From NCBI GenBank assembly GCA_012517065.1, contig JAAYVR010000211.1, positions 1 through 46,956 on the forward strand: 46,956 nt of DNA. The letters are read 5' to 3'. A model generated the notes under the pieces. The model saw only the letters and a program-made list of their open reading frames with translations, was not told where the DNA came from and did not search any database. Position 1 is the stretch's first letter. Every line of letters begins with the position of its first letter. This stretch comes from Verrucomicrobiota bacterium. GTDB lineage: Bacteria; Verrucomicrobiota; Verrucomicrobiia; Limisphaerales; J093. The translations under genes were made by a program, and so were the position numbers. Positions 1 to 46,299 of the stretch are shown one piece after another.

Positions 1-171
1 CACATAACAGACGGAGTGGCGTTGGGGAGCAGGGCGTTTGTTGAGGAGGTGTTCATGAGGCATCGGCCGCTGTTTGGTTCGAAGCGGAAGAGTGGTGCGA
101 GGAAGATACCCGGGATGTTGTTGGGAGAGGTCTATGTGTTGCGTGACTTGAAGGTGAGAGCGATCGAGTAA
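1..171 (+). CDS. REP-associated Y1 (HUH) transposase, C-terminal end only
   Basis: Frame 1 is open from the window edge to a TAA at 169-171 and encodes the last 56 residues of a protein. The tail contains GSRAFVEEVF, then a FGSKRKSGARKI-like basic stretch, then VYVLRDLKVRAIE. In the REP-associated tyrosine transposase family (Y1_Tnp, single-strand HUH nucleases that move or maintain REP hairpins) this G-S-x-x-F-V-E...F-G-x-K-R-K-x-G-A-R...L-R-D-L-x-V order is the usual C-terminal tail, beyond the catalytic HUH and Tyr motifs, which lie outside the window. The gene is cut by the window edge and is too short for a function test here. Its 3' flank recurs at the far end of the window. Recognition rests on the tail motif only; the family assignment is knowledge-based. 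Confidence 0.72.
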   Translation, partial: HITDGVALGSRAFVEEVFMRHRPLFGSKRKSGARKIPGMLLGEVYVLRDLKVRAIE

Positions 172-185
172 AGGGCTGGGAGGAG

Positions 186-585
186 TAAGTCGAGGAAAAG
201 GGGCAGGGGCGTTTTCAGAGATCGGAGTTGGGGGATGCCGAAGGCCTGGTGAAGGAGTTCGGTGATTGGTGGATTGTTTTCACGTGATGTCATTGCCGGC
301 TTGGTCCGTTTGGTGATTAGGGTGAGATCGGCAGTTTGAGGGGTGTTCATGCCGGCTGAATAGGCGTTGTCGGGTCACATCTGAAGTTTCCGGGGACTGT
401 TTTGAGGGGTTGGTGAGGGTTTGGCGGTGGCTGAACAAATAGAGTGACAGAGACGATGTTGTGGCGGCGGGGTTGGACCGGGCTGGACTGGCCTTGTGGC
501 GTCATGAGTGGAGTTTACGATGACCGGTGAGCGCCGTTGGCGGGGTTTGGTGTGGGCGGAGCAAATAGAGTGACAGACACGATGT
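186..585 (+). repeat. Transposase 3' flank, left copy (inverted partner at right edge)
   Basis: The roughly 400 bases after the transposase stop match the reverse complement of 46956-46555, nearly base for base in the first ~150 and more loosely later. Inside are two tandem units of about 126 bases, each ending in AAATAGAGTGACAGACACGAT (434-461, first copy with an AGAGAC variant; 561-585). Each unit also contains a TGAAGTTTCCGGGG-like segment that resembles the right arm of the H2 hairpins described elsewhere. No convincing gene lies here; the open frame on the minus strand between 132 and 350 is a by-product of the repeat. The flank ends about 60 bases before the stop codon of the PQQ-propeller gene. 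Confidence 0.8.
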
Positions 586-26565: not shown

Positions 26566-26597
26566 CCACCGCCCGGTCATTGCACAACACGCATGAT

Positions 26598-27326: not shown

Positions 27327-27421
27327 GGCTTTGCTTATGCAAAAGTCTCGTCACGCTCGTTCGCTACCGCTACGCCGATGGGTTTCGTCGCGCCGAAAGG
27401 TCCCGATCCGCGTCCGGGCCA

Positions 27422-27440
27422 GCTCGCGCTTGCCGCGAGC
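27422..27440 (+). other. Short hairpin in the spacer between the two G-like genes
   Basis: GCTCGCG (27422-27428) and CGCGAGC (27434-27440) form a 7-base-pair stem with a 5-base loop in the 196-base gap. No T run follows. It could separate expression of the first G-like gene from the rest, but this is speculative. Confidence 0.4.
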
Positions 27441-27522
27441 GGGTTGCCAGACTGAATTTGTCATGGAAAGATTGCTTGTTTCGACAGATACAGACCAAAA
27501 TTCCACCCACCCGACTGCCACT

Positions 27523-28392: not shown

Positions 28393-28414
28393 AGTAGCAC
28401 ATTAGGAGATGCTC

Positions 28415-29263: not shown

Positions 29264-30183
29264 AAACAGCCAAAGTCCATCAAAAGCGCCCATCAGCCCA
29301 ACCGCCACGTGAGCGCTGGACTTCCACTCCCCAACATGCTGACAAGAGCCTTTGCACCAGACCCAGCGGACTCCAGGTGTCGGCAATGGCCCTGCCCAAC
29401 TCCGCCTTTACCATGGTCGAAATCGCCATCTGCATCGCTATTATTGCGTTCGCTTTGGTGGCAATAATTGGAGTTCTGCCAACCGGTCTCCAGGTCCAGA
29501 AACAAAACCGCGAGGATACTATTATCCAGCAGGAAGGCGCGTTCTGGATCGAAGCCATCCGGAGCGGCGCGCAGGGCCTCGATTACCTGACCAACCTGGT
29601 CGATGTCATACACACGGAAACGTTTTCTCAGGTCCTAGGACAACCCGGCGGCACACTGACCATGGCCGACGCGACCTATGGCCAAGGTTTCAGAAACGGA
29701 CGCGATATCGTGGGACTCTTAAGCCTGCCGAAGTTATTGTTCTACACAAACGAACGCGGCCAGTCGATGCTGTTCAAGTCCCGCTCGACTTTCGCCTTTG
29801 TCCGTGCAATTGCCGGCTCGGCTATCGAAAAAGTGCCAAAGAATGACTTCGCTTTTGCCTATCGCATTACGACGGAACTCGTGCCGTTCAGTCCACTGGC
29901 GGGCTTCAATACGAATTTCAATGTGCCAAATCTTCCGCCAGCAGAATGGGAGGCCAGATCCAACGCGTTCCTCAGAGCAACCTTGCTCCGCCAAAACGCT
30001 TACGAACTCAAGGTGACCTTCGCATGGCCGGTTTACCAATCCAGAACCGGCGTCCGCGTCGGTAACAACCGGAAAACATTCCGAACCCTTGTCGGCGGCG
30101 CTCTATGGCGAACAAATGTTAATTACTTGCAACAGCGCGAACTGTTTTTCATCCAACCTTCACAATTCACAGTCGGCCAATGA
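29260..30183 (+). CDS. GspI-like minor pseudopilin (Verru_Chthon B-like)
   Basis: 307 residues from the ATG at 29260, which overlaps the TGA of the preceding gene; GAGGAG lies about 11 bases upstream. A long 49-residue leader ends NSA, then FTMVEIAICIAIIAFALVAIIGVLPTGLQ with Glu at +5. The phrase A-L-V-A-I-x-G-x-L-P-x-G-L-Q followed by NREDTIIQQEGAFWIEAIRS matches the Verrucomicrobia cassette family I know as Verru_Chthon B (TIGR02598). The I position of type II secretion (a tip subunit) fits by order. The stop overlaps the start of the J-like gene by ATGA. Confidence 0.86.
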   Translation: MKTAKVHQKRPSAQPPRERWTSTPQHADKSLCTRPSGLQVSAMALPNSAFTMVEIAICIAIIAFALVAIIGVLPTGLQVQKQNREDTIIQQEGAFWIEAIRSGAQGLDYLTNLVDVIHTETFSQVLGQPGGTLTMADATYGQGFRNGRDIVGLLSLPKLLFYTNERGQSMLFKSRSTFAFVRAIAGSAIEKVPKNDFAFAYRITTELVPFSPLAGFNTNFNVPNLPPAEWEARSNAFLRATLLRQNAYELKVTFAWPVYQSRTGVRVGNNRKTFRTLVGGALWRTNVNYLQQRELFFIQPSQFTVGQ

Positions 30184-31082
30184 ACACCCACCGCTGCCAT
30201 ACTTGCCCTCCTCACTGCCCAAGCCGCGCTTTCTCGCTGATGGAGCTGTTGCTGGCGGTGTCCATTTCCGTCGTCATAATAGGAGCGCTTTATACGGTTT
30301 TCCACCACACCCAGCGTGCTCTGCTGTCCAGCGTTACCCAGGTGGATGTCCTCGAGTCAGGACGGCAGGCAATGGATATTATCGCGCGCGACCTCTCGCA
30401 AATATCCGCTTCCGACATCGCGGGTGCCACCAACCTTCTTTGTTTCCAAAGCCCGGCGTATAAACCGCTCCAGCAGGCTCTGGTCGGCGGCGCAGTCCGT
30501 ACCAATATCCTCCACGAATTGTATTTTCTGTCCCGATTCAACAGGGATTGGACCCAAATAGGGTATCGCGTTTTGTTCGCCAGCAACGGCGTCGGAACTT
30601 TGGCCAGACTCTCCTATGCCACGAATTTCTATAATCGAAGACCGGATTCAAACATGCTGGCTCAAGTGGCGCGCATAGTCATCAACCAGGAGCCAACCAA
30701 CTATCTCACGCTCGCCGAGGGTGTGATTCATTTCCATGTCCAAGCCTATGATGACATGGGCCTGCTCATGTCCTGGGACACAACCAATCGGTTCACAAAC
30801 AAATGGATGTATCCACGATTGTTGCTGGGAACCAACGTGTTCCTCTGGAAAGACCGCGAGCCGACCGAAACACGGTTTGCTTTCCTTAGCAACGCACTGC
30901 CCGCCTACCTCGAACTTGAAGTCGGCATCCTCGAACCTCGAGCCCGTGACCAGTTCCAGGCTTTCGCTGCAGGGTCTGTCATGGCCGAACGCTTCATTTC
31001 AAACCGGGCCGGACAGGTTCACTTGTTCAGACAGCGAATTCCGCTGCGTGAATCTTCGCCTTTCTATACCAAACTTCCATGA
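30180..31082 (+). CDS. GspJ-like minor pseudopilin (Verru_Chthon C-like)
   Basis: 300 residues. The ATG at 30180 overlaps the TGA of the I-like gene. A Cys/His-rich 17-residue leader ends PSRA, then FSLMELLLAVSISVVIIGALYTVF with Glu at +5. The helix continues with ESGRQAMDIIARDLSQI, the typical J pattern (R-x-x-M-D-x-x-x-R-D-L). The rest is beta-rich, with VIHFHVQAYDD and a final basic RNRAGQVHLFRQRI segment. GspJ joins GspI and GspK in the pseudopilus tip. The stop overlaps the next start by ATGA. Confidence 0.86.
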   Translation: MNTHRCHTCPPHCPSRAFSLMELLLAVSISVVIIGALYTVFHHTQRALLSSVTQVDVLESGRQAMDIIARDLSQISASDIAGATNLLCFQSPAYKPLQQALVGGAVRTNILHELYFLSRFNRDWTQIGYRVLFASNGVGTLARLSYATNFYNRRPDSNMLAQVARIVINQEPTNYLTLAEGVIHFHVQAYDDMGLLMSWDTTNRFTNKWMYPRLLLGTNVFLWKDREPTETRFAFLSNALPAYLELEVGILEPRARDQFQAFAAGSVMAERFISNRAGQVHLFRQRIPLRESSPFYTKLP

Positions 31083-34000
31083 AGCATCAGTCCCAAAAAG
31101 GTGTCGCCCTTGTCATCACGCTTGTGATGCTGGCAGTGGTCACTTTGATGGCCATAACCTTCCTCGCCGTCAGCCGTCGCGAACGCGCTGCCGTAACAAT
31201 CGCCGATGACCAAACAGTGTCACGCTTGATGGCTGATGCCGCACTCGAGCGCGTCAAGGCTGAAATTGTTACCCGAATGATGGCCTCCGGCAGCCTCTTG
31301 ACATACGACTTCGCAGTCTCCACCAACTTCGTAAACACAAACGGGTTCAACCCAAGTCTCCCAACAGACACACCCAATATCACAAACGTCAACTACAACT
31401 ACCTCAATACCGGTGCGCCGCTCAAAGACGAAACCCACCGGCTCCGCAACATCGCAAACCTACAAATCGATCCGCGCCCGCCCGTCTATGTTCTCGAGGG
31501 CACCAATCTGGAGTTCAGATTCTACCTCGACCTGAACCGAAACGCGCGCTTCGAATCAAACGGCGTTTGCCCAATATTGGGTGATGACGGACGGCCCGTT
31601 TCACCATTCCAATCCGCCAACCTAACAGGCGACCCGGAATGGATCGGTGTCCTCGCTCAACCCGATGCCCCCCACTCAGCAACAAACCGTTTCGTCGGCC
31701 GTTATGCCTACATGGTTCTGCCCACTGGCAAAAGCCTGGACATAAACTTCATCCACAACAACACAAAGGCTGGCCCCTCAGATCGGCAAATGCGTTCCAT
31801 CGGTTACCTGCGGAACCAGGGCGTCGGCCCATGGGAACTCAACCTCGCCGCTTTCCTCCATGACCTAAACACAAATGTCTCCCGTGAATATGATTACCGC
31901 GGTTTCCGCACATTCGCCCGCAACACCGACTCTTTCGCCGATGCACTCGCCTTCCTCCGGTACCGATATGACGGTGACTACCGCAACCTTGCTCCGGCCA
32001 GAAACTGGTTTTACAACACAAACGGCTTCTCTGTCGCAAATTCACTTCGCTTCGATCTTGTTGACAGTTACACCGACGGACCGGTTTACAACGGCGTTTT
32101 GCCGCTGACATCCGACAACGACGATGTCACCACCCCGTGGGCCGGGAGCGATTCACCAAAGAGCTATTTCGAGTTCAACGATTTCTTCAACACAAACAAA
32201 GTCCCTGTCTCCTGGCTTGGCAACTTGCTGCTCGTACAAAACGGCCTTTCCACCTACAACCGATACACTTTCTATCGGCTCCTGTCACAGTTGGGAACTG
32301 ACTCGCCGCCGCCAAGCCGCACCAAAATCAATTTGAATTACAACAATCTGCCCCCGTACAACTCCACAAATCTTGTGCCATGGACACCCTTGGCATTCTT
32401 CACCAACGTGGCAAACAGGCTGATAGAAGCGTCCCGTACCACCAATTTCGTGCTGTTCAGCACCGGCAGGATCGCCACAAACGCCTTCCTTGGAGAGCAT
32501 CTGATCCGGCCAGGCTTGCACGTCAACCGAATACAAATCTATCCTTTCAATGAGTATTCTCCTGCCCTCCATCGCCTTCTCCAGCTAGCGGTCAATCTTT
32601 ACGATGCCACCACAAACAATCCAGCTACCCCTTACCCACAATTGCCAACAGTCCTGAGACCGTTGTTCTCAGGCTCAGGCACCAACATCTACATCTCAGG
32701 ATATGAAGAGGTTACCGATGCGTCTTTGCTGGATCGAATGCGGCTCTATGATCTTAACATCCCCGAAGACCGCGCCCGACTCACCAACGATCCGCTCGCC
32801 GTCGTCTATAATATTCCGTTTCTCATAGGCGCAAAGAAAGGCTTCCCGAATTTCAACGAGTTCGCCCTCCAAAATGTTGCCCAGTTGACCCGTAAACTCG
32901 AAATCCGCAAGCCGTCCCCCGGCGCACGGCCAAATCAAACCAACATCTTGTATCAACTCACGCTGTCGAATCAGTTCGGCCTCGAATGCTGGAACTCATA
33001 TACCCAGGACTTTTCGCGTGCACTCAGGCTCAAAGCCGCCGGTGACCTGTTCGTAATGGTTTCAAACACACTCAGCCCCGGTTCAATCCTCCGCTACGTA
33101 TCAAATCATTACGAGACAAACATGTTTCTGCCCAACTGGCCGGCGCGTGAGTTCAAGGTGCCAATCCATCGCGGCCTTGTTGTTGCCAGCAACGAGGTTT
33201 ACAACCCGCTCAATAGCTCGCTCCAGTTCGCCGGCACCAACCTCAATTTCATCCCGGGCCTTGGCTTCTATGTCCCATACATCAACATCTATCTGACAAA
33301 CAGGTGCTACTATGCTCTCATCGACCAGAGCGTCGTTCCGAACCGAATCGTCGATTTCGTTTGTCTGGGAAACATGGGCACTGCATTGGACCTCACAAGA
33401 GAGCTCGCAGGACGCGCGCAATCGGTCTCAGTGGCAGGTGGTTTGGCCGAGCCAGCCAATCTTTGGGGCACAAATACGGCGGGCTTGCAAAACCAGGTTG
33501 AAATCTCGCTCGGTAACATCCCCGTAAGCTCGCAGCAATGGCGCAGTTTTAGCCAGGTCAGCGCCGAGGGGCGCGACAAAGAAAAGAGCATCGACAGATT
33601 ACGCCTGTTTTGCGGCCTTACGCCACTTGTGTACCAATCCGGTCGCGCTCTTGCCGAACTTAGCGCCGAGGTTGGCAACAAGCTCGCAATACAAGCCGGC
33701 TTCTCACCCACGCGCAAGATCTACCAAGACCTCTCATGGCAAGCCAACGATCCACTTGTCCACTACACACTTGGAGACTTGCTTGATCCGTTCAATCGGC
33801 CCGGCGATCCAAACCGCACAAATGCCATAAGATTCGCTATTCCGCCCGAAATCGCCCTCACAAACTCGAACCTCGGCATCCTCAACGAAAGATACAGGCC
33901 ATGGGGCGGCAACCCGAATCAATCCGTCGATCGTATAGCACGTGATTTGAGATTCAAAGACCCGCTCATCACTCAGTCGGATGATTGGCAATTCCCAACC

Positions 34001-34792
34001 AACAAATTCCCGAATATCGGATGGATCGGCCGTGTCCACAGAGGCACGCCATGGCAAACTGTCTATCTCAAGGCTGACATAGCCCCCACAAACGACTGGT
34101 TCCGGTGGGCGGGAAGTTATGGCACGCATCCAACCAACGACTGGAACATCGTCGAATGTTTCACAACCGCTTTGAACGACAATGCCGCGCGCGGACTTCT
34201 GGGTGTAAACCAGGCCAACCTCGCCGCCTGGTCAGCAGTCCTGAACGGCCTCATGATCGCCATTCCAACCAATGACGTTGGCGGCGTGCAATCAATCCTC
34301 ATCGGCCCCCACCCACCACCGCCAATCGCAACAAACCTTGTCCCGGATATCGTCGCCGGCATCAACCGAACCCGCACGATGGAAATCGCTCTTGACCCGG
34401 CTGGGCGTGGCGTGCCCTTGTTCCATAGGATGGGCCGGATTCTTGCCACACCCGAGCTGACGTTCGGAACAGTTACTGTCCCAAGTCCGTCGCCCGGCTT
34501 ATACCACAGGTGGATTCAGTACATGCCGCGCGACGAAGTGCTCGAGTGCATCCCGCAGCATATCCTCTCGCTTATTAAAGAAGATGAGCCTCGGTTCGTT
34601 GTATATGCTTTCGGTCAGGCGCTTCGTGAAGCGCCCAATTCTCTTTACCTCGGTTCCGGCACTTTCAACCGGCTGTGTACCAATTACCAGGTCACTGCCG
34701 AGTTCGTCAGCAAATCCGTCATACGCATAGAAGGAACACCACTCTCACCACGCGCAGTGGTCGAAAGTTACAACGAACTTGTTCCGGAATGA
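31079..34792 (+). CDS. Giant GspK-like protein (Verru_Chthon A-like)
   Basis: 1,237 residues. The start overlaps the J-like stop by ATGA. The N-terminus QKGVALVITLVMLAVVTLMAITFLAVSRRERAAV is a K-type pseudopilin signal: cleavage after Gly and no Glu at +5, as in GspK, followed by a long helix (LMADAALERVKAEIVTRMM). Classical GspK has ~330 residues; the remainder here is a very large Asn/Thr-rich body without a domain I recognise, with many TNTNG-like turns. In Verrucomicrobia such proteins are grouped as Verru_Chthon A (TIGR02600). As K caps the pseudopilus and contacts substrates in type II secretion, an enlarged K could be an adapter for the giant protease that follows after 37 bases. Confidence 0.82.
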   Translation: MKHQSQKGVALVITLVMLAVVTLMAITFLAVSRRERAAVTIADDQTVSRLMADAALERVKAEIVTRMMASGSLLTYDFAVSTNFVNTNGFNPSLPTDTPNITNVNYNYLNTGAPLKDETHRLRNIANLQIDPRPPVYVLEGTNLEFRFYLDLNRNARFESNGVCPILGDDGRPVSPFQSANLTGDPEWIGVLAQPDAPHSATNRFVGRYAYMVLPTGKSLDINFIHNNTKAGPSDRQMRSIGYLRNQGVGPWELNLAAFLHDLNTNVSREYDYRGFRTFARNTDSFADALAFLRYRYDGDYRNLAPARNWFYNTNGFSVANSLRFDLVDSYTDGPVYNGVLPLTSDNDDVTTPWAGSDSPKSYFEFNDFFNTNKVPVSWLGNLLLVQNGLSTYNRYTFYRLLSQLGTDSPPPSRTKINLNYNNLPPYNSTNLVPWTPLAFFTNVANRLIEASRTTNFVLFSTGRIATNAFLGEHLIRPGLHVNRIQIYPFNEYSPALHRLLQLAVNLYDATTNNPATPYPQLPTVLRPLFSGSGTNIYISGYEEVTDASLLDRMRLYDLNIPEDRARLTNDPLAVVYNIPFLIGAKKGFPNFNEFALQNVAQLTRKLEIRKPSPGARPNQTNILYQLTLSNQFGLECWNSYTQDFSRALRLKAAGDLFVMVSNTLSPGSILRYVSNHYETNMFLPNWPAREFKVPIHRGLVVASNEVYNPLNSSLQFAGTNLNFIPGLGFYVPYINIYLTNRCYYALIDQSVVPNRIVDFVCLGNMGTALDLTRELAGRAQSVSVAGGLAEPANLWGTNTAGLQNQVEISLGNIPVSSQQWRSFSQVSAEGRDKEKSIDRLRLFCGLTPLVYQSGRALAELSAEVGNKLAIQAGFSPTRKIYQDLSWQANDPLVHYTLGDLLDPFNRPGDPNRTNAIRFAIPPEIALTNSNLGILNERYRPWGGNPNQSVDRIARDLRFKDPLITQSDDWQFPTNKFPNIGWIGRVHRGTPWQTVYLKADIAPTNDWFRWAGSYGTHPTNDWNIVECFTTALNDNAARGLLGVNQANLAAWSAVLNGLMIAIPTNDVGGVQSILIGPHPPPPIATNLVPDIVAGINRTRTMEIALDPAGRGVPLFHRMGRILATPELTFGTVTVPSPSPGLYHRWIQYMPRDEVLECIPQHILSLIKEDEPRFVVYAFGQALREAPNSLYLGSGTFNRLCTNYQVTAEFVSKSVIRIEGTPLSPRAVVESYNELVPE

Positions 34793-34829
34793 CAACCACA
34801 AACTCCAGATTTTCCATCGCTCGCGGCCT

Positions 34830-37800
34830 ATGAAAGCCCGTACCTGGTCAATAATCAGCGTTGTTTGTTTCTGCGCCGCAATCGGCTTCTGGATGCTGGG
34901 CAATCGCACTCAGCAACGCCAGATGCAGACCATGGCAACAAACTCAGCCCACGCCGGTCAACAGCTCGGTAGTGCTGACAGCCCCGTCCGACTTCTAAGC
35001 GCGCCCAATCTCACCAACGGCAGCCAGACAAGGAATGGTTCTGCCCCCGCAGACCCGGCTAACCCGCCAGTATCGACAAATCATTCAGTCCAGCAAGACC
35101 CGCTGTTCCCATTCCGCCTCCGAAACACAGGTCGCAACGTGGAAGCCCTGTCGCGCAGCGACACCGCCATTCTCCTGCGCAACGCAATTATAGACACCAG
35201 CCTCGATCCTTCGCTGCCCATCCCTTCGCACCTCCGAGCAGGAGATGATCCTGGCGCTTATCTGGTGCAGAGCCGAAAGCCAGCGGACGCCGGTTTTCTC
35301 AACTCCCTGTCAGAAATGGGCGCTGCTCTGGTTTCGTACATCCCCAACAACACATGGCTCGTTCGCGCATCCCGTGAGGCCGCTGGGCGAATTCGATCGT
35401 CGCCCCTTGTCCGAGCCGTCTTGCCGTACGAGCCTTACTACAAGATTGACCCGCAGTTGCTGCCGTTGGCCGTTGACCAACAACCTCTTCCCGAAGGCGC
35501 AAGGCTCGTTGTTACGGCTTTTCCGGATGCAGGTCCGCAACTGAACCGGGCGCTCATCGCTCAGAACGCGAACGTCATTGGCGAGAATCGGACGCCATTT
35601 GGACCGCAGTTCATCGCTGAGGTTTCACCGGACGCCCTCCCTGCACTCGCCGGACGTCCGGAAGTCCAATTGATCGAACCGTGGAGTCCCCGTGTTCTCC
35701 TTAACGACCTGACACGGGTGCGAATCGGTGTTTCGGACGGCACTCTTTCCACCAACACCAATTACTTCAACCTCACCGGCGACAAGATTTGGGTCAATAT
35801 GAACGACAGCGCCGTCGATTCAAGCCATCCTGACCTCGAAGGCCGTGTGTTCGGCGAAACAAACGTTATCTCCGGCGACCCAAGCGGCCACGGCACACAT
35901 GTGGCCGGCACAATCGCCAGCTCTGGCCTCAAAAGCCCGAACGGAACCAACGCCCCAGGGTCCGTTGAAGGCGCAAGTTTTCGAGGCATGGCCCCATCCG
36001 CAAAGCTTCTTGTCCTGCCAGTTGATCTCATCTTCGGCCCGCTAGTCTCGGATTCATACCTCCAGGAAACCGCGGCCCTGACCAACTACGTCGTGCTCCA
36101 GCGCACCAATGTCATGGTCTCAAACAACAGTTGGGGTTACGGTAATCGTTTTGACTATGACTCAGCAGCCGCCACCTATGACGCCGCAACAAGGGACGCG
36201 GTCCCCACCATGACAGACCTAACCAATAGCCAGGCAATGCTTTTCGTGTTCGCCGCAGGCAATTATGGCAAAGGCAACGACATCGGCACAGGCGGCGAGC
36301 CGGGCACGATCAATTCCCCAGCAACCGCCAAGAACGTCATAACTGTCGGCGCCATAGACAGCCCCAGATTCATCTACTACACCAACATCACCGAAGAACT
36401 CGTAACCAACATCATCGATGACGAGTTCGTTGTCACCAATATGTTGGTCACTAACATGGTTTATCTTGGCGAAACCGATAGCGACGACGAAGTCGCGCCT
36501 TTCTCAAGCCGCGGCAACGTTGGCATTGGCCTCGAAAGCACCGCTGGCAGGTTCAAGCCCGATCTTGTGGCTCCCGGTGCAATGCTCGTCTCAACCCGCC
36601 CCATCAAACCCGAGTCGGTCTGGGAGGATTGGGACCCAACCATAAACATAACAAATCAGCAGGTTAATAATTATCCGGCTCAGACTGTTCCGCACCACCA
36701 AACGAATCAGTACTCGATTTATGTCCCTGCCAATGCAACACGCCTAACAATCGAAGTCCTTACCAATCTAAGTTCGCCTAGCCCGTTCCCAACTCTGCCC
36801 ATCTATGTCAATCAAGGCGATTTCGCCTACAACGTGGAACCGTTCCGCACAAACCGAGTTGTCATTCCCAATGAACGGTTCACCAACCTTGTCGAAGGCA
36901 TTTGGTTCTATGGCATCGGCAATGAAACCGCAAACAGCGTCGATTTTGACCTCCGCACAATCCTCGAGTTCAGGGTCGATACCGGTTCTTATTCGAATGT
37001 GCTCAAACAGCTCTCCGATGACCTTGGGCCATACTACCGCGTCAAATCAGGCACAAGCGGCGCAGCGGCAGCCGTGTCCGGTCTGCTTGCTCTCGTGCAG
37101 GAGTTCTTCGAACAGCAGCTCAAAACCAATTACAGCCCAGCTTTGCTCAAGGCAATCCTCATCAACGGCGCTCGGTCGCTCGGTCCGCTATACAACTTCC
37201 AGGTCCGCAACAACATCAACTACCAAGGATGGGGCATCGTAAACCTCACCAATTCACTGCCGCAGACGTTGACCAATGCACTCGACAAACCCGAATCATG
37301 GCCTGTGGCATGGATCGACCAGAACCCAACAAACGCCCTCGCCACCGGCCAGACAAACCAGTATTCACTCTCCATCGAACCCGGCGCCACAAACGGCAAC
37401 CTCCGCATAACACTCGTCTGGACCGATCCCCCGGGTAACCCGGCAGCTTCATACAAACTGGTCAACGACCTCGACCTGATCGTATCCAACAACGTCTCCG
37501 GCACGGTGTACCTCGGCAATGACATCCCGGCCTCAAGCGATTTCAATCAGCCCAATTCAATCGATAACCTCGCAGCTTACGACAATGTCAACAACGTCGA
37601 GAACGTCTTTATCCGAGCGCCTGTTGACACAAACTATACAATCCTTGTCTCCGCGCGCAGAGTCAACGTCAACGCTGTTAACACACATACAAACGGAATC
37701 GTCCAGGACTATGCCCTCGTGGTTTCAACAGAAACCACAAATGCGATCACCCTAAAGCCGAAAACGGGGGATTCACCCCGCCCACTGGCAGCCGCAGAGT

Positions 37801-40800
37801 TGACCGTCGTAACAAACGGCATCCCGCTTCTCTACCAACGCGCCGGCGCAAATTCGCCCCTTCAACTCTACCCTGTCGGAGTCACAAACCAATGGCATTT
37901 CTACGTTTTCACCAACGCCTATGTCGAAGGCATGGAAGGCGAAACCAATTTCGGCCCGTACGTCGCATTCGTCACCTTCATGCCGCCTGAACTGTCAACC
38001 CCAAGAAATGAGGACGCCGACATCGATATGTATGTCGCCCGCAGTCAAGACCCGCGCGGGGACTTGTACCAGGCCGATCAGCTGCTCGTGCTCGAAACAA
38101 ACGCTGTCCGATACGCCTACAAGTCACTTTCAGCCGGTGGTTCCGAAACAGTGGTCTTCACAAACGCCGCCGACGGCGAGGTGTTCTACATCGGAGTAAA
38201 AGCCGAAGACCAAAGCGCCGCCGAATACGGTTTCTTCGGCATCTCGAGCCCGGAACCGTTCAGTTCAATCGATGAAAACGGTAACCAGATCACACGCGGT
38301 TTGCGCCTGCCTCAGGCCATCCCAGATGGCTCGCCGGTAACCCCGGGCGGTACCAACATCTTCGCCATCGCAATCTACCCCATGGACCTGATCCAGGTCG
38401 TCGTCAGCAATAGCCTCTACCACGAAGCCCTCGGCGACCTGGTCGGAAACCTTAGCCACTTGAACCGATTCGCCGTCCTTAACAATCACAAGAGCAGCGA
38501 TGCCGCTCCAGACGGGTTCTATTCCGCGCTCTACGACGACACGGGTTCCGGTGCCTTCCCGAATGCCCAAACCACCGACGGGCCGGGCACACTCGACAAC
38601 TTCGTCGGTTTGGAAGGCTCAGGCGCATGGATTCTCACCGTCGTCGATAACGCACTCGGCCAAACAGGGTATGTCCAGAATCTTGAGATGAGGCTCACCC
38701 CAAACCTCGATCTTCTGGCAGGTGCATTCGTAACGCTCGCACCTGAGCAGTGGCGTTACGCTTACATCGATGTTCCCCCTGACGCCAGCCGAATGATCGT
38801 TTCCGTCACACGATTAAGCGCCGGACCGCTTGAGTTGTACCTGCGAAGGGGTGTGCGCCCGACGAGAACCGATTACGACAACATGGCAACGCTGTTCCCG
38901 CCAGGAGGCGAGCTGAGCCAGAGCATATACGATGACCCGCCTCTCACGGCCGGCCGCTACTTCATCGGCGCTTACAACCCAAATGCATCCAGTATATCGT
39001 TCTACATTTACGTCAGATTCGAACGCGAATTGCCCGATGTCTTTCGCCGAACCTTCGTGTCAACGAATATGGTTGCTGTCGGCGACCTCGCTCTGAACGT
39101 TGGCACCAACGACGTCACAAGTGCCATGGTTATCAGCGATATCAAGGTCGGCCTCCGCATAAATCACCCGCGCGCTTCAGACCTCGACATTCGCTTGGTC
39201 AGCCCCCGCGGCCAGTCAGTCTTGTTGTCCGAAAGCCGCGGCGGAACCAATTGGACCGCTTTCGGCGCTGAAACTGTGCTTACCAATTTCCATCACGTGG
39301 CTTTGACCTACCTGAATGCAAGCAGAACCGCTACACTCTACATCGACGGTGAACCTATCCGCTCGAAACAGATTCCCGAGTTTGGCGACCGCCTTGTGAC
39401 CTGGGGCGATCTGTATTTCGGCGCGAGGCCTGACTTCCCAACCATGACCAACCAGTACCGCGGCATGCTGGATGAAACTGACCTCTACCGCCGCGCCCTT
39501 TCTGCGTCCGAAATACGCGCAATCTACAAGTTCGGCGGCGCAGGCAAGCCAATCGACGGGCTCGCCGCCCGCTGGCTTTTCGACGACGACACCGGTATCG
39601 ATTGGCTCACAAATCATACAGCCATCTTCACCAACCTCGTCGTTGACTACCCAGGCATGTTCGATCGCTCCCTCCATTTCCCTGCCGAAGGCACAGGTTA
39701 CGCATTCGTGGCCCGCCACCCAAACCTCGACCTCGGCGCAGCCGAAGGACTCACAATCGACGCATGGATCAGCCCTTCCGACCTGTCCACAAACCGAACA
39801 ATCGCAGTCTGGGCAGACGGCACAAACAGCATCGGCGTCGAGTTCTTCATTCGGCCGGGGTCCGACACCAACAAACCACAAGGCGAACTCGCCGCCCGCT
39901 TAATCGATTCTTCCGGCGTAACTAACATCATCGCGGCCGGCCCCGAAAGTCAGGGTCTCATCCGGACCAACAGCCTCATCACCAATATCGTATTCGCCAC
40001 CTTTACCAGCGATACCAATCTGGCCCACACGCCGATCAAATTCACAGGCCTGACCAACGAGCAGACAGAGATAATCCCCGGTTTCGCAGGTCCTGCCACA
40101 GGCGCTTCCGTCCATTACACAAACCAGTACATAAGCGGATTCGAATTCCCGGTCGCCAACCCAACCGCAACATTCTGCGCACAACCGGCAGGAACGAACC
40201 TCCCCACAGTTGTCATGGACGACCCCTATCCATGGCAACGCACAAACGGCTGGGTTGTCACAAACGGCTGCGTCACCGTAATCAATTCCCCGCTCTTGGC
40301 GCATACGGGCACGAATCTGCTGGCCCTGCGAAACGGCCATATCAGACGTTGGCTGCCAACACGCCCGGGCACCGAGTACAAGCTCCAGTTCACTCACCGC
40401 TTGCAACCTCTCGCGCCAGATATTGTCGCATGGTGGCCAGGCCAGACCTCCGAAGTGGACGTCATAGGCGGTCACAACGCCCAAGTCCTGGGCACGGTAG
40501 CTTACACAAACGCCATGGTTGACCAGGGATTCCTTTTCGCAACAAACCAAGTCAGCCTGAGTGTCCCGGACGACCGCGAGCTCGTCGCCACCAATGAGTT
40601 CACGATTGAACTCTGGTTCAACCTCACGAATGCTATCGCCGTCTCCAATCCCCCACCGGTAGGCGGGCCGATGCTCCTCAAAGCAATCACCGGTTCCAAC
40701 CCCGCCGTCAATTACGGGCTTTCAGCTTATCAGACCGGACTCGAATGGTGGTACAATGATCCCACTGTCGCAGGGGACATCGACTCCGACCACCCGACAC

Positions 40801-43451
40801 TCGAGTTGGTGCGGTCAAAACGTGCGCCTACACCGGGCGCTTTCCACCATGCCGCCGCAACTATTCGGCAAATCAGCACCAACAGAGTCGAACTCAAGCT
40901 TTACATGGATGGGCAGTTGGAACGACACGTCACGCTGCCGGGCACGCTCACCAACACCTTCCTCCCAACAAACTCAATCGATTCGCCTCTCCTCATTGGG
41001 ACCAACTCCGTCACCGGCGAGTTCTTCACGGGTATCATGGACGAAGTCTCCATCTATCAACGCGCCTTATCTGAAACTGAAATTGCAGAAATCTACGCCC
41101 TGCACAACGTCGGTAAGTGCCCGCCCCCCGCGCAACCCCGCACGCGCCTCACCTTGGGCAGCTCCATCTCCGCCGTCTTTAGCACTTACTCACCCCAGTG
41201 GCAGACCAACTCCGTTACGTTCGTTGCCGAATCTGACGAAACCGAGTTCGGCTTGGAAGCGCTCGGCCCAGGCGTGCTTCTCGATTCCTTTGAACTGATC
41301 GAGATGGCACCACGCTATTTCTTGCCCGAAGAAGAACTGACGCCTTTCATAGGCCAGGTGGCAGCGGGCGAGTGGCACCTGCAGGTTGTTGATAGACGGC
41401 TCGGCGTCACAAATGACATCGATCCTCAGCTCGTCTCATGGCAGCTCGATCTCACGTTCGCCCCGCCCACCTACCCAATAGTCCGCATCACAAACGGTGT
41501 CCCATACACAAATACCATCATCGGCGGCGCCACAAGGTACTTCCTCGTGGAGGTGCCTTCAACAGCACAGCGCGCAACCAACACTCTCATTGCCACTACT
41601 AACCTTAGCCTATGGTACAACCCCAACAGCCTTCCTGCGGGCATGTCTAAGTACGGCGACGTCCAGTTCCTCACAAATGAGCTCGCCGGCATCGCAGTCC
41701 TGGCTACCAACGGATGGTGGATGGCTCTGCCAGATGGAACTCCTGTGATGCCTGCTGATCCCATAGCTTCTCTCCCGGTCGGGCAACTGTACTACCTTGC
41801 TGTCAAAAACGAACAGGCAGGCCCAGTAGATTTCAGCATTCAGGTCGATTTCTACCCAGACGCCAGCCGCGACATTTGCCCTGACATAACCACGCTGCCG
41901 TCTGGTGAATTCATCATAGCCAACATCCCGGCAACCAACGCCTTGCAGTACTATTGCTATCACGTCACCGACACAGCCAAATGCGTCACTTTCCAGGTCT
42001 TGCCTCTTGATGGCAACGTTGACATTTACATCCGGAACGCACGCTCGACACCGCCTCTCTGGCCAGCTCCAGATTGGTACGAGTACGCCAGCGAAAACCC
42101 GGGATTGTTCAGCGAACAAATCGTCGTCAACCACCGGTCACGGGTCCCGTTGTTCCCCGGCAACTGGTACATCGGCATACTCAACCGCGAAACCAACGAA
42201 GTCCAATACGCGCTATTCGTCGATGAAACCGTCGCCTACGGTGAGATTCCTCTCCAGCTTGGAACGCCTGTCACGGCCACTGCTGAACCGGCCAACGACA
42301 CCTGCACTTATTATGCGTTGAACGTCAACGCCGCTGTGCCAGCCCTGCAGTTCCAGTTGTACAACCTGACTGGCAACGCGCGCCTGCTGATCAGCCGAAA
42401 CAGCCGGCCAGGCCCTTCAGACGCTCTCTACTCCCAGGACGCTTCTAAAGGCATACCCGCTAACCTCGTCGTTTGCCCAGACAGTTCCATGCCTGACCTC
42501 CGCGGAATATGGTACATCGCAGTGCTATCACGTGACCCTGTTCCAGTTACCTGCAGCCTTTCTGTTTCGGTGCCACAACCGCGGTTAACCACGCTGCTCA
42601 GCGGCATCGCCCTCACTAACACCGCACCTCGCCTCGGCTCCGGCGGCGATTGCGTTCCTGAAGTGTACAAGTTTACTGTCGTACCCAACGCAACTCGCGC
42701 CGAGTTCTTCCTCACCCCAATCGATGGCAATGTCGATCTGTTCGTGCGGAAGGGCGATTCGCCCACATCGGTTCTGTTCGACTACATGAGCACTGAGCCG
42801 GGTATCCTGCCGGAAAGTATCAGGGTCACAACAAACAGCGTGCCTGTGCCACTCAGCAGCGGTGATTGGTACGTCTATGTCTATAACGCTGACAACCGAG
42901 CGGTGTCGTACATGCTCCAAGCCATCCAATACATAGGCGATACACCGGTCGGCGTGTCGTTCAAGCCGGTCATCTCAGTCACAGGCAGCATCATCACCCT
43001 GCAATGGTTCGCGTCGCCCGGCCTGGTTTTCCGTGTCCAGTATGCAACCCAGATTGCGCCGTCGGGCGATTTTATCTGGATCGACATACCCGGGACGGTC
43101 ACATCCGCAACAACCCTTTACACATTCATAGACGATGGATCACTCACCGGCGGCCCCGCACCGCAGAAGTTCTATCGCGTCACCCTCGAAGGCGGCACCC
43201 CGGTTGACACATCCATTACCGTCAACATTTCGCTGGCAGGCGACACGATTGTTCTCGACTGGGACAGTCTCCCGAACCTCAAATTCAAGGTCCAATACGC
43301 ACCAGACATTCCCGGCTCCGGCGTAATCAACTGGTCCGATGTGCCCGGTACCGTCACATCAGCAACCGGGTCTTACACTTTCACCGACGACGGCTCCCAG
43401 ACCGGCGGCAAAGGCAAAACGAAGTTTTATCGGGTCGTCCTGATCCCGTAG
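34830..43451 (+). CDS. Giant subtilisin-family (S8) protein with P, LamG and PPC-like modules
   Basis: 2,873 residues from the ATG at 34830 (a TTG at 34779 is possible); signal-like segment SIISVVCFCAAIGFWML. A propeptide-like part (about 80-290) precedes an S8 domain (about 310-800): His354 in SGHGTHVAG, oxyanion Asn477 in FAAGNYG, and Ser742 in GTSGAAAAVSG. The Asp motif is unusual, NDSAVDSSHPDL, with Asp325 the likeliest residue instead of D-T/S-G. Later come a P-type end (about 1237-1293), a P domain interrupted after 1486 and resumed near 2163-2210, a permuted LamG (1486-1718), a regular LamG (about 1860-2100), several PPC-like sandwiches (2215-2700), and two C-terminal beta repeats (about 2710-2790 and 2795-2873). 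No sortase or PEP-CTERM signal is present. It ends the pseudopilin run and is its likely cargo. Confidence 0.88.
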   Translation: MKARTWSIISVVCFCAAIGFWMLGNRTQQRQMQTMATNSAHAGQQLGSADSPVRLLSAPNLTNGSQTRNGSAPADPANPPVSTNHSVQQDPLFPFRLRNTGRNVEALSRSDTAILLRNAIIDTSLDPSLPIPSHLRAGDDPGAYLVQSRKPADAGFLNSLSEMGAALVSYIPNNTWLVRASREAAGRIRSSPLVRAVLPYEPYYKIDPQLLPLAVDQQPLPEGARLVVTAFPDAGPQLNRALIAQNANVIGENRTPFGPQFIAEVSPDALPALAGRPEVQLIEPWSPRVLLNDLTRVRIGVSDGTLSTNTNYFNLTGDKIWVNMNDSAVDSSHPDLEGRVFGETNVISGDPSGHGTHVAGTIASSGLKSPNGTNAPGSVEGASFRGMAPSAKLLVLPVDLIFGPLVSDSYLQETAALTNYVVLQRTNVMVSNNSWGYGNRFDYDSAAATYDAATRDAVPTMTDLTNSQAMLFVFAAGNYGKGNDIGTGGEPGTINSPATAKNVITVGAIDSPRFIYYTNITEELVTNIIDDEFVVTNMLVTNMVYLGETDSDDEVAPFSSRGNVGIGLESTAGRFKPDLVAPGAMLVSTRPIKPESVWEDWDPTINITNQQVNNYPAQTVPHHQTNQYSIYVPANATRLTIEVLTNLSSPSPFPTLPIYVNQGDFAYNVEPFRTNRVVIPNERFTNLVEGIWFYGIGNETANSVDFDLRTILEFRVDTGSYSNVLKQLSDDLGPYYRVKSGTSGAAAAVSGLLALVQEFFEQQLKTNYSPALLKAILINGARSLGPLYNFQVRNNINYQGWGIVNLTNSLPQTLTNALDKPESWPVAWIDQNPTNALATGQTNQYSLSIEPGATNGNLRITLVWTDPPGNPAASYKLVNDLDLIVSNNVSGTVYLGNDIPASSDFNQPNSIDNLAAYDNVNNVENVFIRAPVDTNYTILVSARRVNVNAVNTHTNGIVQDYALVVSTETTNAITLKPKTGDSPRPLAAAELTVVTNGIPLLYQRAGANSPLQLYPVGVTNQWHFYVFTNAYVEGMEGETNFGPYVAFVTFMPPELSTPRNEDADIDMYVARSQDPRGDLYQADQLLVLETNAVRYAYKSLSAGGSETVVFTNAADGEVFYIGVKAEDQSAAEYGFFGISSPEPFSSIDENGNQITRGLRLPQAIPDGSPVTPGGTNIFAIAIYPMDLIQVVVSNSLYHEALGDLVGNLSHLNRFAVLNNHKSSDAAPDGFYSALYDDTGSGAFPNAQTTDGPGTLDNFVGLEGSGAWILTVVDNALGQTGYVQNLEMRLTPNLDLLAGAFVTLAPEQWRYAYIDVPPDASRMIVSVTRLSAGPLELYLRRGVRPTRTDYDNMATLFPPGGELSQSIYDDPPLTAGRYFIGAYNPNASSISFYIYVRFERELPDVFRRTFVSTNMVAVGDLALNVGTNDVTSAMVISDIKVGLRINHPRASDLDIRLVSPRGQSVLLSESRGGTNWTAFGAETVLTNFHHVALTYLNASRTATLYIDGEPIRSKQIPEFGDRLVTWGDLYFGARPDFPTMTNQYRGMLDETDLYRRALSASEIRAIYKFGGAGKPIDGLAARWLFDDDTGIDWLTNHTAIFTNLVVDYPGMFDRSLHFPAEGTGYAFVARHPNLDLGAAEGLTIDAWISPSDLSTNRTIAVWADGTNSIGVEFFIRPGSDTNKPQGELAARLIDSSGVTNIIAAGPESQGLIRTNSLITNIVFATFTSDTNLAHTPIKFTGLTNEQTEIIPGFAGPATGASVHYTNQYISGFEFPVANPTATFCAQPAGTNLPTVVMDDPYPWQRTNGWVVTNGCVTVINSPLLAHTGTNLLALRNGHIRRWLPTRPGTEYKLQFTHRLQPLAPDIVAWWPGQTSEVDVIGGHNAQVLGTVAYTNAMVDQGFLFATNQVSLSVPDDRELVATNEFTIELWFNLTNAIAVSNPPPVGGPMLLKAITGSNPAVNYGLSAYQTGLEWWYNDPTVAGDIDSDHPTLELVRSKRAPTPGAFHHAAATIRQISTNRVELKLYMDGQLERHVTLPGTLTNTFLPTNSIDSPLLIGTNSVTGEFFTGIMDEVSIYQRALSETEIAEIYALHNVGKCPPPAQPRTRLTLGSSISAVFSTYSPQWQTNSVTFVAESDETEFGLEALGPGVLLDSFELIEMAPRYFLPEEELTPFIGQVAAGEWHLQVVDRRLGVTNDIDPQLVSWQLDLTFAPPTYPIVRITNGVPYTNTIIGGATRYFLVEVPSTAQRATNTLIATTNLSLWYNPNSLPAGMSKYGDVQFLTNELAGIAVLATNGWWMALPDGTPVMPADPIASLPVGQLYYLAVKNEQAGPVDFSIQVDFYPDASRDICPDITTLPSGEFIIANIPATNALQYYCYHVTDTAKCVTFQVLPLDGNVDIYIRNARSTPPLWPAPDWYEYASENPGLFSEQIVVNHRSRVPLFPGNWYIGILNRETNEVQYALFVDETVAYGEIPLQLGTPVTATAEPANDTCTYYALNVNAAVPALQFQLYNLTGNARLLISRNSRPGPSDALYSQDASKGIPANLVVCPDSSMPDLRGIWYIAVLSRDPVPVTCSLSVSVPQPRLTTLLSGIALTNTAPRLGSGGDCVPEVYKFTVVPNATRAEFFLTPIDGNVDLFVRKGDSPTSVLFDYMSTEPGILPESIRVTTNSVPVPLSSGDWYVYVYNADNRAVSYMLQAIQYIGDTPVGVSFKPVISVTGSIITLQWFASPGLVFRVQYATQIAPSGDFIWIDIPGTVTSATTLYTFIDDGSLTGGPAPQKFYRVTLEGGTPVDTSITVNISLAGDTIVLDWDSLPNLKFKVQYAPDIPGSGVINWSDVPGTVTSATGSYTFTDDGSQTGGKGKTKFYRVVLIP
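39282..39986 (+). other. LamG-encoding segment in circularly permuted order inside a P domain
   Basis: Within the giant protease gene, 39288-39540 encodes the C-terminal half of a LamG domain (FHHVALTY...YIDGEPI...RALSASEIRAIYKFG), and 39541-39980 encodes an N-terminal half (LAARWLFDDDTG...GLTIDAWISPSDLS). The P domain before it breaks off at ETVLTN and plausibly resumes at IVFATFTSDTN. ACCAAT occurs at both junctions (39282-39287 and 39981-39986), exactly 699 bases apart (233 codons), so removal would keep the frame. The domain order is seen directly; the mechanism is inferred. Confidence 0.7.
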
Positions 43452-43720
43452 CCCGCAGCGCGGCACGGCCGCAACCAAACGCTCTGTTCGATACAACTCC
43501 GCCCTGGACGCAGGCACCCCGCGCTGTTGCGCCACGCTGGCCGGGGCAAATTTGTCGCCCTCGCCCGTCATGGGTTGGGATGAGTAAATGAGTTCCTTGA
43601 GACAAAAGGTTTGAACGACCCCACAGCCTGCAATGGTTGCGCGAACCCGGCTTCTCAAGTCGCTCTCGAGTTTCATTTAAGCCTTTAAATCACGAGACCT
43701 GCCACCTAGACTTCCGCCCG

Positions 43721-44428
43721 ATGCGGAACCCAATCATAGTTGCACTTGACGTCCCAAATGCAGAGCGCGCAGTTGACCTCGCGAAGCGTCTCAAGCCTTT
43801 CATCGGCGCCGTCAAAATCGGCTCCGAATTGTTCACCGCCGAAGGTCCGGCAATTGTCCGAGCCCTGCGTGAAGACGGAGTCCCGGTGTTCCTGGACCTC
43901 AAGTACCACGACATCCCCAACACCGTCTCAAGGGCTGTCGAAGCCGCAGTGCGCCTTGATGTTCAAATGCTCACTGTGCATACCTCCGGCGGACTTGAAA
44001 TGATGCGCGCTGCCAAACAAGCAGCAGACCGGGCAGCTTCCGAACAGCATCACTCCCCGCCAATCTTGCTCGGCGTGACTGTGCTCACCAGTCTCAATGA
44101 CACCGGACTGGCCCAGGTGGGAGTCAATGCAAGCGTAGCCGATCAGGTACAACGTCTTGCAAGGCTTGCCGTGCAAGCCGGGTTGGGCGGCCTCGTTTGT
44201 TCGCCCATTGAACTCCCAATCGTACGACCGATTGCGCCACCAGAGTTCCAAATCGTCACGCCAGGCATCCGGCCGCCAGGAGCGCCTCCGGACGACCAAA
44301 TGCGAACCCGCACACCTGCTGAAGCAATCGCCGCAGGAGCAACATGGCTCGTCATCGGACGGCCAATCGTTTCCGCTCCCGACCCTTGTGCTGCGGCTCG
44401 CATTATTCTTGAATCTTTGGGCTGTTGA
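43721..44428 (+). CDS. pyrF: Orotidine 5'-phosphate decarboxylase
   Basis: 235 residues from the ATG at 43721; the frame is open further upstream, but the family starts at PIIVALDV. PyrF converts OMP to UMP, the last step of UMP synthesis. All catalytic positions are present: Asp10 in VALDV, Lys32 in VKIGSELF, and the D-x-K-x-x-D-I motif DLKYHDIPNTV (Asp59, Lys61, Asp64). The phosphate-gripping end VTPGIRPPGA...RTRTPAEAIAAGATWLVIGRPI is complete. Length is normal. A 269-base gap separates it from the protease gene. FtsB-like and peptide-transporter genes follow in the same direction at 46 bases each, so they may share a transcript. Confidence 0.97.
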   Translation: MRNPIIVALDVPNAERAVDLAKRLKPFIGAVKIGSELFTAEGPAIVRALREDGVPVFLDLKYHDIPNTVSRAVEAAVRLDVQMLTVHTSGGLEMMRAAKQAADRAASEQHHSPPILLGVTVLTSLNDTGLAQVGVNASVADQVQRLARLAVQAGLGGLVCSPIELPIVRPIAPPEFQIVTPGIRPPGAPPDDQMRTRTPAEAIAAGATWLVIGRPIVSAPDPCAAARIILESLGC

Positions 44429-44474
44429 TGTCTGGTATTTGATCTTTTGTTTTTGGCGATTTCGTCTTATAGAA

Positions 44475-44819
44475 ATGCGCATGTATGTGCCCACGATTTG
44501 GGATCGGCTGACGCGCCTTGTGCTCTTGCTGATTTTCGCAGCGGCGGTGCTGCTCGTGGTAATTTCCTACCTCCCCCTTATCCGTCAAAACAAGGCCATG
44601 CGCGAGGAACTGCTGCGCATCGAGGAGGAGATTCAAAAAGCCGAGGATATGAACCGCCAAAAGAAAGCAGCCATAGAATCACTCCGCAATGATCCTGAAG
44701 CTGTCGAAAGGCTGGCCCGCGAACGACTCGGGCTCGCCAAACCGGGCGAGGTCGTGGTCCACTTCGAACCGCCGGCCACAAACAGTCCTGTCCCGGTTGA
44801 GCTGCCTGCGGGCAAATAA
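44475..44819 (+). CDS. Septum formation initiator, FtsB/DivIC-like
   Basis: 114 residues from the ATG at 44475. A short cytosolic N-terminus precedes one membrane helix (about 16-36, VLLLIFAAAVLLVVISYLPL), then a coiled coil (about 40-75, heptads with REELLRIEEEIQKAEDMNRQKKAAIESL) and the family's end motif NDPEAVERLARERLGLAKPGEVVV. These match bitopic FtsB/DivIC proteins that link FtsL and FtsQ in the divisome. The tail after residue 98 is Pro-rich and variable. A longer open frame upstream has no family content and is excluded. No cell-division gene is adjacent. Confidence 0.88.
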   Translation: MRMYVPTIWDRLTRLVLLLIFAAAVLLVVISYLPLIRQNKAMREELLRIEEEIQKAEDMNRQKKAAIESLRNDPEAVERLARERLGLAKPGEVVVHFEPPATNSPVPVELPAGK

Positions 44820-44865
44820 TTGCTGGCAATCAAATGTAAAACCACCAACGCCGCCCAACAACGCA

Positions 44866-46299
44866 ATGACAACCGCCAACGGTGCTTCAAACAGGTTCCC
44901 GCCTCAAATTCGCTATATCATTGGCAATGAAGCCTGCGAACGTTTCAGCTACTACGGCATCCGGAGCATACTCGCTCTCTATATCAGCACGGTACTCTAC
45001 AAGAATCTGCCCGACGGCGAGGCCAAAGACCAAGCAACCTCGATAATCCACACTTTCATTTTCGCAAATTACTTTACGCCGCTGATCGGCGCATGGCTCA
45101 GCGACAAGCTCTGGGGCAGATACAACACCATACTATACGTGTCGCTCATTTACTGCCTTGGCAACGCAATACTCGCCCTCGGCGTAGGGTCAATCTGGGG
45201 ACTTTACATCGGTCTAGCCTTTGTCGCACTCGGATCCGGAGGGATCAAGCCTTGCGTCTCAGCTTTCTGCGGAGATCAGTTCAGACCCGATCAGGCGCCC
45301 CTGCTCCAAAAGGCTTATGGCTTGTTCTACTGGTCGATAAACTTTGGCTCGTTCTTTTCGTTCCTTGTGATTCCGTGGGTCAAAGATGCGGCCGGCTATC
45401 GCTGGGCATTCGGCATACCCGGGATCCTTATGTTTATCGCCACACTGATATTCTGGCTAGGGCGACGGTATTACACCCGAATGCCACCCTCCCGCGAGAC
45501 AGGGTCTGCCGGTTTCTTCAAGGTGACATGGTACGCAATCAAGAATCGAAACCAACGTCGGCCCGGCCAATCAATCTGGGATGTCGCACGCACAAGGTTC
45601 ACTGAACACGAGGTGGACGCCGCAAGATCAGTGGGGCCAATCCTGCTCGTATTCGCCCCCATAACAGTCTTCTGGGCGCTCTTTGATCAAACAACTTCCA
45701 CATGGGTATTGCAGGGCAATCAGATGACCCCCGTCCATATCATTGGAAGTCTTTCGATCGGGGCCGAGCAAATGCAATCGATGAACCCGGCTCTTGTGAT
45801 GGTCCTTGTGCCATTGCTCACTTTTGTCGTGTACCCTCTGGTAGGCAAACTCGGCGTGGCCGTCACGCCGCTGCGCCGAATGTCTGTCGGAATGTTCCTT
45901 GCGGCTTTTTCCTACGTCGTGGTCGCAATGCTCCAAACACAAGTCGATTCCGGCGCGCAACTCAGTGTGCTTTGGCAGACCCTGCCATACTTCATTCTTA
46001 CAACTGCTGAAGTCCTTGTTTCCGCCACGGGCCTCGAGTTCGCATTCACCCAGGCCGCACCCGAAATGAAGAGCACGATAATGAGCTTTTGGTTGCTGAC
46101 CGTCGCGGTGGGGAACCTCTATGTGCCTTTGATAACCAAAGCCAAGGGTGCGCTTTTCCCTGAGCCAGCCGGTGTCACTGGCGGGCATGCAGTAAGTCCT
46201 TCCACCTTCTATTTCTATGCGGCCCTCACGCTTGTTACCGCAGTCGTCTTCGTAATCATCGCCGCACGTTACAAGGAACGGCGACATCAGCAGCCCTGA
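44866..46299 (+). CDS. POT/PTR2-family proton-dependent oligopeptide transporter
   Basis: 477 residues from the ATG at 44866. The hallmark E-x-x-E-R-F-x-Y-Y-G motif for proton coupling is present as EACERFSYYG early in the protein. Twelve or more hydrophobic segments are estimated, with F-x-x-F-Y-W-x-I-N-x-G near 150-160 (GLFYWSINFGSFFS) and GGIKPCVSAFCGDQF as family signatures. It imports di- or tripeptides with protons across the inner membrane, which would suit an organism exporting large proteases; the link is inference. It lies 46 bases after the FtsB-like gene. An upstream frame extension to 44689 overlaps that gene and is excluded. The stop codon touches an H2 hairpin. Confidence 0.93.
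   Translation: MTTANGASNRFPPQIRYIIGNEACERFSYYGIRSILALYISTVLYKNLPDGEAKDQATSIIHTFIFANYFTPLIGAWLSDKLWGRYNTILYVSLIYCLGNAILALGVGSIWGLYIGLAFVALGSGGIKPCVSAFCGDQFRPDQAPLLQKAYGLFYWSINFGSFFSFLVIPWVKDAAGYRWAFGIPGILMFIATLIFWLGRRYYTRMPPSRETGSAGFFKVTWYAIKNRNQRRPGQSIWDVARTRFTEHEVDAARSVGPILLVFAPITVFWALFDQTTSTWVLQGNQMTPVHIIGSLSIGAEQMQSMNPALVMVLVPLLTFVVYPLVGKLGVAVTPLRRMSVGMFLAAFSYVVVAMLQTQVDSGAQLSVLWQTLPYFILTTAEVLVSATGLEFAFTQAAPEMKSTIMSFWLLTVAVGNLYVPLITKAKGALFPEPAGVTGGHAVSPSTFYFYAALTLVTAVVFVIIAARYKERRHQQP

Follow-up and report, generated by a model that had tools for sequence, protein, structure and literature searches.

A giant S8 (subtilisin-like) protease, predicted to be secreted and encoded in a 46,956-nucleotide stretch of verrucomicrobial DNA (the whole of which is called the window here), carries a natural circularly permuted LamG domain with a concanavalin A (ConA)-like fold, inserted into a loop of its P domain. 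Residues 1504-1736 of the protein are one complete LamG domain in the order C-terminal half, short linker, N-terminal half. We give a probability of about 90% to the whole reading, in which this domain would have a single origin in a slice of a tandem LamG array and would serve the protease as an interchangeable binding module.

Organization of the S8 protein and its P domain

The S8 protein was read from a TTG codon, although an in-frame ATG at 34830, ahead of a signal-peptide-like stretch, is the likelier start. A Pfam search found the S8 domain, half of a P domain (residues 1453-1495), LamG matches, and a PPC domain. The Peptidase_S8 match covers residues 335-612 (E value of 8.1e-38), and the catalytic Asp, His, and Ser motifs are all present (VNMNDSAVD from 339, GHGTHVAG from 370, and GTSGAAAA from 758); of 46 orthologous S8 sequences, 4 escaped the simple GTS pattern and 3 the HGT pattern. 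The base composition showed no break at the permuted segment. The parts of the gene considered below are as follows.

34779-43451, + strand: S8 (subtilisin-like) giant protein, 2890 aa read from TTG (open reading frame)
39135-39287, + strand: opening part of the P domain, residues 1453-1503, running into the insert-bearing loop (site A); P_proprotein profile positions 2-45 of 86 and orthologue alignment
39288-39533, + strand: LamG C-terminal half, residues 1504-1585, which comes first; HMM 130-208, 74.8 bits; Laminin_G_3 positions 80-150
39534-39560, + strand: linker GGAGKPIDG, residues 1586-1594; tandem-array-like but shorter (linker table)
39561-39986, + strand: LamG N-terminal half, residues 1595-1736, which comes second; HMM 1-118, 62.4 bits
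39987-40046, + strand: resumption of the P domain (IVFATFTSDTNLAHTPIKFT); aligns with the strand directly after the loop in empty-site orthologues
40137-41309, + strand: site B, the second P-domain insertion, a DUF642/choice-of-anchor-C-like jelly roll, residues 1787-2177 (approximate); profile matches and AlphaFold2
About 40428-41100, + strand: ordinary N-to-C LamG nested inside the DUF642-like domain of site B; Laminin_G_3 at 1927-2103
41310-41480, + strand: closing part of the P domain, residues 2178-2234; aligned in every full-length homologue

The permuted segment is 699 nucleotides long and in frame. ETVLTN ends at residue 1503 (39287) and FHHVALTY begins at residue 1504 (39288), while SLITN ends at residue 1736 (39986) and IVFATFT begins at residue 1737. 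In the native protein, P_proprotein matched residues 1453-1495 with only the first half of its profile. Once the permuted LamG was omitted, the P domain was continuous, as the original prediction had proposed: P_proprotein scored 54.8 bits over two stretches, and the flanks aligned with those of orthologues in which the site is empty. It resembles the P_proprotein domains (PF01483) of S8 proteases in its first part and in the next strand, both of which align with the orthologues, but differs in having two interruptions, the permuted LamG and the LamG-bearing DUF642-like domain. The second insertion, overlooked in the first reading together with the variable character of the site A loop, is itself nested, with an ordinary LamG inside the DUF642-like jelly roll, and in most relatives site B carries an ordinary LamG. 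A TIGR04362 match to the site B domain (residues 1823-1875) was weak and under its cut-off.

The halves of the LamG domain are in swapped order

On the isolated segment, Laminin_G_3 (PF13385) scored 60.5 bits, above its gathering cut-off of 27.6, and aligned segment residues 2-78 with profile positions 80-150 of 151. Since the first residues match the end of the profile, the C-terminal half comes first. The segment departs from the canonical strand order of this family, and a domain that exceeds the cut-off with its strand order swapped is a permuted variant rather than an ordinary family member. An independent LamG profile, built only from 32 unpermuted LamGs, nearly all out of tandem arrays, matched the insert twice in its native order, at 74.8 bits (HMM positions 130-208) and then at 62.4 bits (positions 1-118). 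When the insert was rotated, the same profile gave a single match of 150.8 bits over positions 1-208. Thus, both the swapped halves with their GGAGKPIDG linker and the normal LamG recovered on joining the ends, which had been proposed from the letters of the window, were borne out.

The same arrangement was found in all 26 homologous inserts, each of which matched positions 130 to 207-210 of the independent profile first and positions 1-3 to 112-129 second. Rotation raised their median best-domain score from 57 to 113 bits and their median profile span from 100.5 to 207.5 of 210 positions, and every rotated insert gave one full-length match except L121_G283 (42-208, owing to an extra stretch). 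Ordinary LamGs rotated at the same cut behaved in the reverse manner, with the median falling from 137.6 to 67.5 bits. The cut point was common to the 26 inserts, at about profile position 125-130 in the loop ahead of the FHHVALTY strand, and the rotated inserts (n = 26) held the whole LamG domain once, with neither half duplicated. The swapped-order signal across these homologues is far beyond chance. The extra stretch in L121 (G283) amounts to about 30 residues in the N-terminal half, and the match to that half is split around it.

When a profile of the inserts was compared with the sequences of solved structures, the matches were again swapped: in 6hox, query residues 2-79 aligned with 167-241 and 107-174 with 37-106, and in 4qvs, query residues 2-76 aligned with 137-218 and 108-188 with 24-102; in both structures, the second piece is weak when taken alone. 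Like the Laminin_G_3 domains of verrucomicrobial tandem arrays, the insert has all profile positions once, bar a few loop residues; unlike them, it has its halves in the opposite order and its termini in a different loop.

Ordinary annotation would give two partial LamG matches here and overlook the permutation. Both Pfam and the independent profile do give two partial matches in the native order, which is what would be seen if two decayed, functionless remnants of different LamGs lay side by side. We consider such a pair of remnants highly improbable, given that the halves are complementary without overlap in 26/26 inserts, that rotation brings the score to roughly the total of the two halves, that the frames are open at 30-50% protein identity, and that the prediction for the insert is a single confident domain (see below).

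The permuted domain is predicted to form a single jelly roll

AlphaFold2, run on the isolated insert in native order together with 24 homologues, gave one jelly-roll domain with a pLDDT of 93.1 and a pTM of 0.90, from an input alignment of permuted sequences only. A closed jelly roll is therefore the most likely fold of the permuted LamG, as far as a predicted model can tell, in agreement with the earlier suggestion that the rearranged domain may still fold. Its best sequential structure match was 1ajo (Z score, 10.5; 154 aligned residues, 1..212; 10% identity). This structure, CPA16M-127, is one that we take to be an engineered circularly permuted (1-3,1-4)-beta-glucanase. The match covers nearly the whole insert; the glucanase, however, is a permuted enzyme, whereas the insert occurs naturally, belongs to another family, and shows no enzyme signs here. 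Next came half of the LamG-like 4qvs (Z score, 9.0; 93..222), an acylase (Z score, 7.4), and many ConA-type lectins near a Z score of 7. Foldseek likewise placed ConA-type lectins and 1ajo at the top, all with E values above 0.001. In contrast, the ordinary LamG of the same protein, taken from the AlphaFold2 model of the whole region, matched the unpermuted AbnA domain 4 (Z score, 22.8). Permuted and ConA-type matches for the insert against unpermuted matches for the ordinary LamG are the contrast expected of circular permutation in this fold.

The model of the whole P region was weaker, with a pLDDT of 76.5 overall and of 26-46 after the insert (about model residues 311-361). In a fold search with this whole region, the ordinary LamG at 456-690 took up the matches, and clostridial neurotoxin receptor-binding jelly rolls were frequent among them; this reflects a shared fold only and has no bearing on toxicity.

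Permutation of this fold is already known from concanavalin A and the permuted glucanases. No earlier report of a permuted LamG was found in the literature searched, a search whose coverage excluded most subscription journals. Concanavalin A is permuted posttranslationally, by cleavage and ligation (PMC3320104). It stands in the same relation to other legume lectins, with the same fold circularly permuted, and ConA-type lectins are among the sequential structure matches of the insert; the order of the insert, however, is fixed in the gene, and the insert belongs to the LamG family and is set inside another domain.

The S8 gene lies behind a conserved cluster of prepilin-like genes

The genes ahead of the S8 gene are as follows.

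26580-34792, + strand: six upstream genes, with family matches mostly under curated cut-offs
26580, 27307, 28409, 29089, and 30180 (starts), + strand: five genes with prepilin-like N-termini
31079-34792, + strand: 1237-aa GspK/Verru_Chthon-A-like protein

At least seven other genomes (G004, G006, G010, G013, G047, G066, and G106) have all six upstream genes, in unchanged order, ahead of the S8 gene. Their products resemble Verru_Chthon cassette proteins A-D and the type II secretion pseudopilins GspG/H/J/K at their N-termini, but nearly all matches fall far below the curated cut-offs, and an S8 protease as the last gene is absent from those models. Its S8 motifs and its position behind prepilin-like genes suggest that the S8 protein is probably exported, and it may work alongside an assembly resembling type II secretion or a pilus. 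After the S8 gene, at 43637-46299, lie an orotidine monophosphate (OMP)-decarboxylase-like gene and a POT-family peptide transporter gene; neither was found in the searched downstream stretches of relatives.

The upstream cluster is common to genomes with the permuted LamG and to G047, in which the site A loop is empty. The shared gene order therefore indicates that this is the same S8 gene whether the loop is empty or filled.

The P-domain loop is empty or differently filled in orthologues

Homologues lacking the segment, which the original prediction had named as a means of checking it, do exist: the site A loop, which follows ENRGG, is empty in the orthologues of G047, G257, G017, and G091. 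The empty site of G257 reads QIDQTN-LVFAGFTENTN, compared with ETVLTN-IVFATFTSDTN in the source protein without its insert. In other orthologues, site A holds CUB-like sequence (about 100 residues) or a DUF642-like domain with or without a LamG, these contents being named by eye from the sequence. Judged by what the orthologous sequences carry there, the loop is a variable domain site. In L108 (G063), site A seems, when read by eye, to hold an L-type-lectin-like domain in the ordinary order.

Two genomes of the same genus differ at this loop, G111 (L077) carrying a permuted LamG and G125 (L112) a CUB-like sequence. Their flanks are 91.7% identical up to nucleotide 4807 and 86.5% identical from nucleotide 5530 (G111 numbering); the identity on the left ends about 50 nucleotides before the insert, and that on the right begins at the P-domain strand. 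The content of the loop has thus been exchanged near the domain edges between G111 and G125. The CUB-like insert of G125 (L112, about 2420-2740) contains a reading-frame break, which is either a real lesion or a MAG error.

The permutation is old and shared

Full-length relatives of the region, at 31-53% identity, are present both in the same family and in others of the order. When 320 genomes of the order were searched by profile, a P domain with a permuted LamG turned up in families f1, f7, f44, and f54 and in one f15 genome, as a rule in a single copy per genome. The contigs belong to several unrelated MAG projects, mostly titled Verrucomicrobiota or Verrucomicrobia and in one case Pedosphaerales. 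One matching contig record is labeled Akkermansia muciniphila, a label unsupported by its placement here. Among 388 genomes sampled from the phylum, no match outside the order reached an E value of 1e-30; a wider genome-contig search returned the same Verrucomicrobiota contigs and some weak, partial matches, of which three lie in Acidobacteria MAGs (L137, L139, and L140).

The source assembly consists of 298 contigs, and LamG repeats are prone to misassembly, which raises the question of a LamG repeat misjoined or misbinned in one MAG. That such an artifact produced the swapped order is next to inconceivable and, for the family, is refuted: the same order and cut recur in 26 homologues, and their presence in five families of one verrucomicrobial order and in independent MAG projects, with a shared upstream gene order, argues against an assembly error. 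The permutation is old and shared, being neither recent nor specific to one genome.

Origin and history of the insert

In the LamG tree, 25 of the 26 inserts fell into one group (90% SH-aLRT). G111 and two tandem repeats of G092 adjoin this group in a polytomous fork, and the permuted group needs two changes on this tree; the ordinary LamGs nearest to the inserts are tandem repeats of L113_G092. Between profile edges, the linker measures 5-13 residues in the permuted domains and 11-19 in tandem arrays, and a GxxGK pattern is kept in many rows. The tree and the linker back one part of the earlier proposal that a single LamG unit opened in its middle had been inserted, namely its derivation from a tandem array; the event itself is old and shared rather than particular to this genome.

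We propose that the permuted LamG probably arose once, when a slice one period long, running from mid-repeat to mid-repeat of a tandem LamG array, entered a surface loop of a proprotein-convertase-type P domain. The cut lies in the loop ahead of the FHHVALTY strand, and the old termini are joined by a short linker resembling the tandem-array link. The domain would subsequently have been kept by descent and, in at least one genus, gained or lost by exchange of loop content. No P domain that would represent an intermediate, carrying several LamG repeats in shifted phase, came to light.

The S8 tree, an unrooted one in which a gain looks the same as a loss, rejected the grouping of all permuted genes as one clade (p-AU of 8e-8) but did not reject a clade of f1 with f44 and f54 (P value of 0.35). 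The first of these results shows that simple vertical descent from one gain, with neither loss nor exchange, is wrong. It would also suit independent permutations in the f1/f54/f44, f7, and f15 lineages, as would the LamG tree in joining G111 to the other inserts without firm support. We nevertheless think repeated permutation unlikely, because every insert has the same profile cut (about 125-130) and occupies the same P-domain loop, and 25 of 26 form one group at 90% SH-aLRT. Moreover, the loop takes other domains too, so module exchange explains the patchy pattern without repeated permutation.

ACCAAT ends at each junction, 699 nucleotides apart and in frame, as had been noted from the window; as a meaningful trace of the insertion, the hexamer fails. 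Its bases vary between close relatives, and 14 of the 75 Thr-Asn dipeptides encoded in the S8 gene use ACCAAT. Given the age of the event, silent sites are uninformative about the insertion. At the protein level, Thr-Asn precedes both junctions in most members of f1, f44, and f54, as a single-crossover integration of circular DNA from a tandem LamG array at ACCAAT microhomology would leave it, and the empty-site orthologue of G257 also has Thr-Asn. Against such an integration, Thr-Asn is very common in these proteins, the six bases differ among members, G111 and most f7 members have no Thr-Asn directly at the left junction, and copying a slice of a tandem array would leave the same trace. A circular intermediate is accordingly an improbable route in our estimate, and the junction Thr-Asn may be part of the P domain proper, as the empty site of G257 has it too.

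Significance of the permuted insert

LamG and the other modules found in the loop are mostly binding folds. In our reading, the permuted LamG would bind a glycan or a protein and so deliver the protease to its substrate, sitting close to the protease on the P domain as one of several interchangeable modules. To our knowledge, few circular permutations are natural and encoded in the gene, and this one coincides with insertion into another domain. Unpermuted tandem relatives, empty-site orthologues, and two close species with different content at the site are rarely available together; their presence here makes both the route of permutation and the tolerance of the host domain directly testable.

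A wider proposal, to which we would give rather less than even odds, is that the loop serves in nature as a place of domain exchange, within the gene that closes a conserved pseudopilin cluster. Recombination would swap whole binding modules (CUB-like, DUF642-like, L-type-lectin-like, and permuted LamG) at their edges between species, and a protease near or on a pseudopilus would thereby change its target. If this is true, the permuted LamG would be a natural case of permutation adapting a domain to life as an insert.
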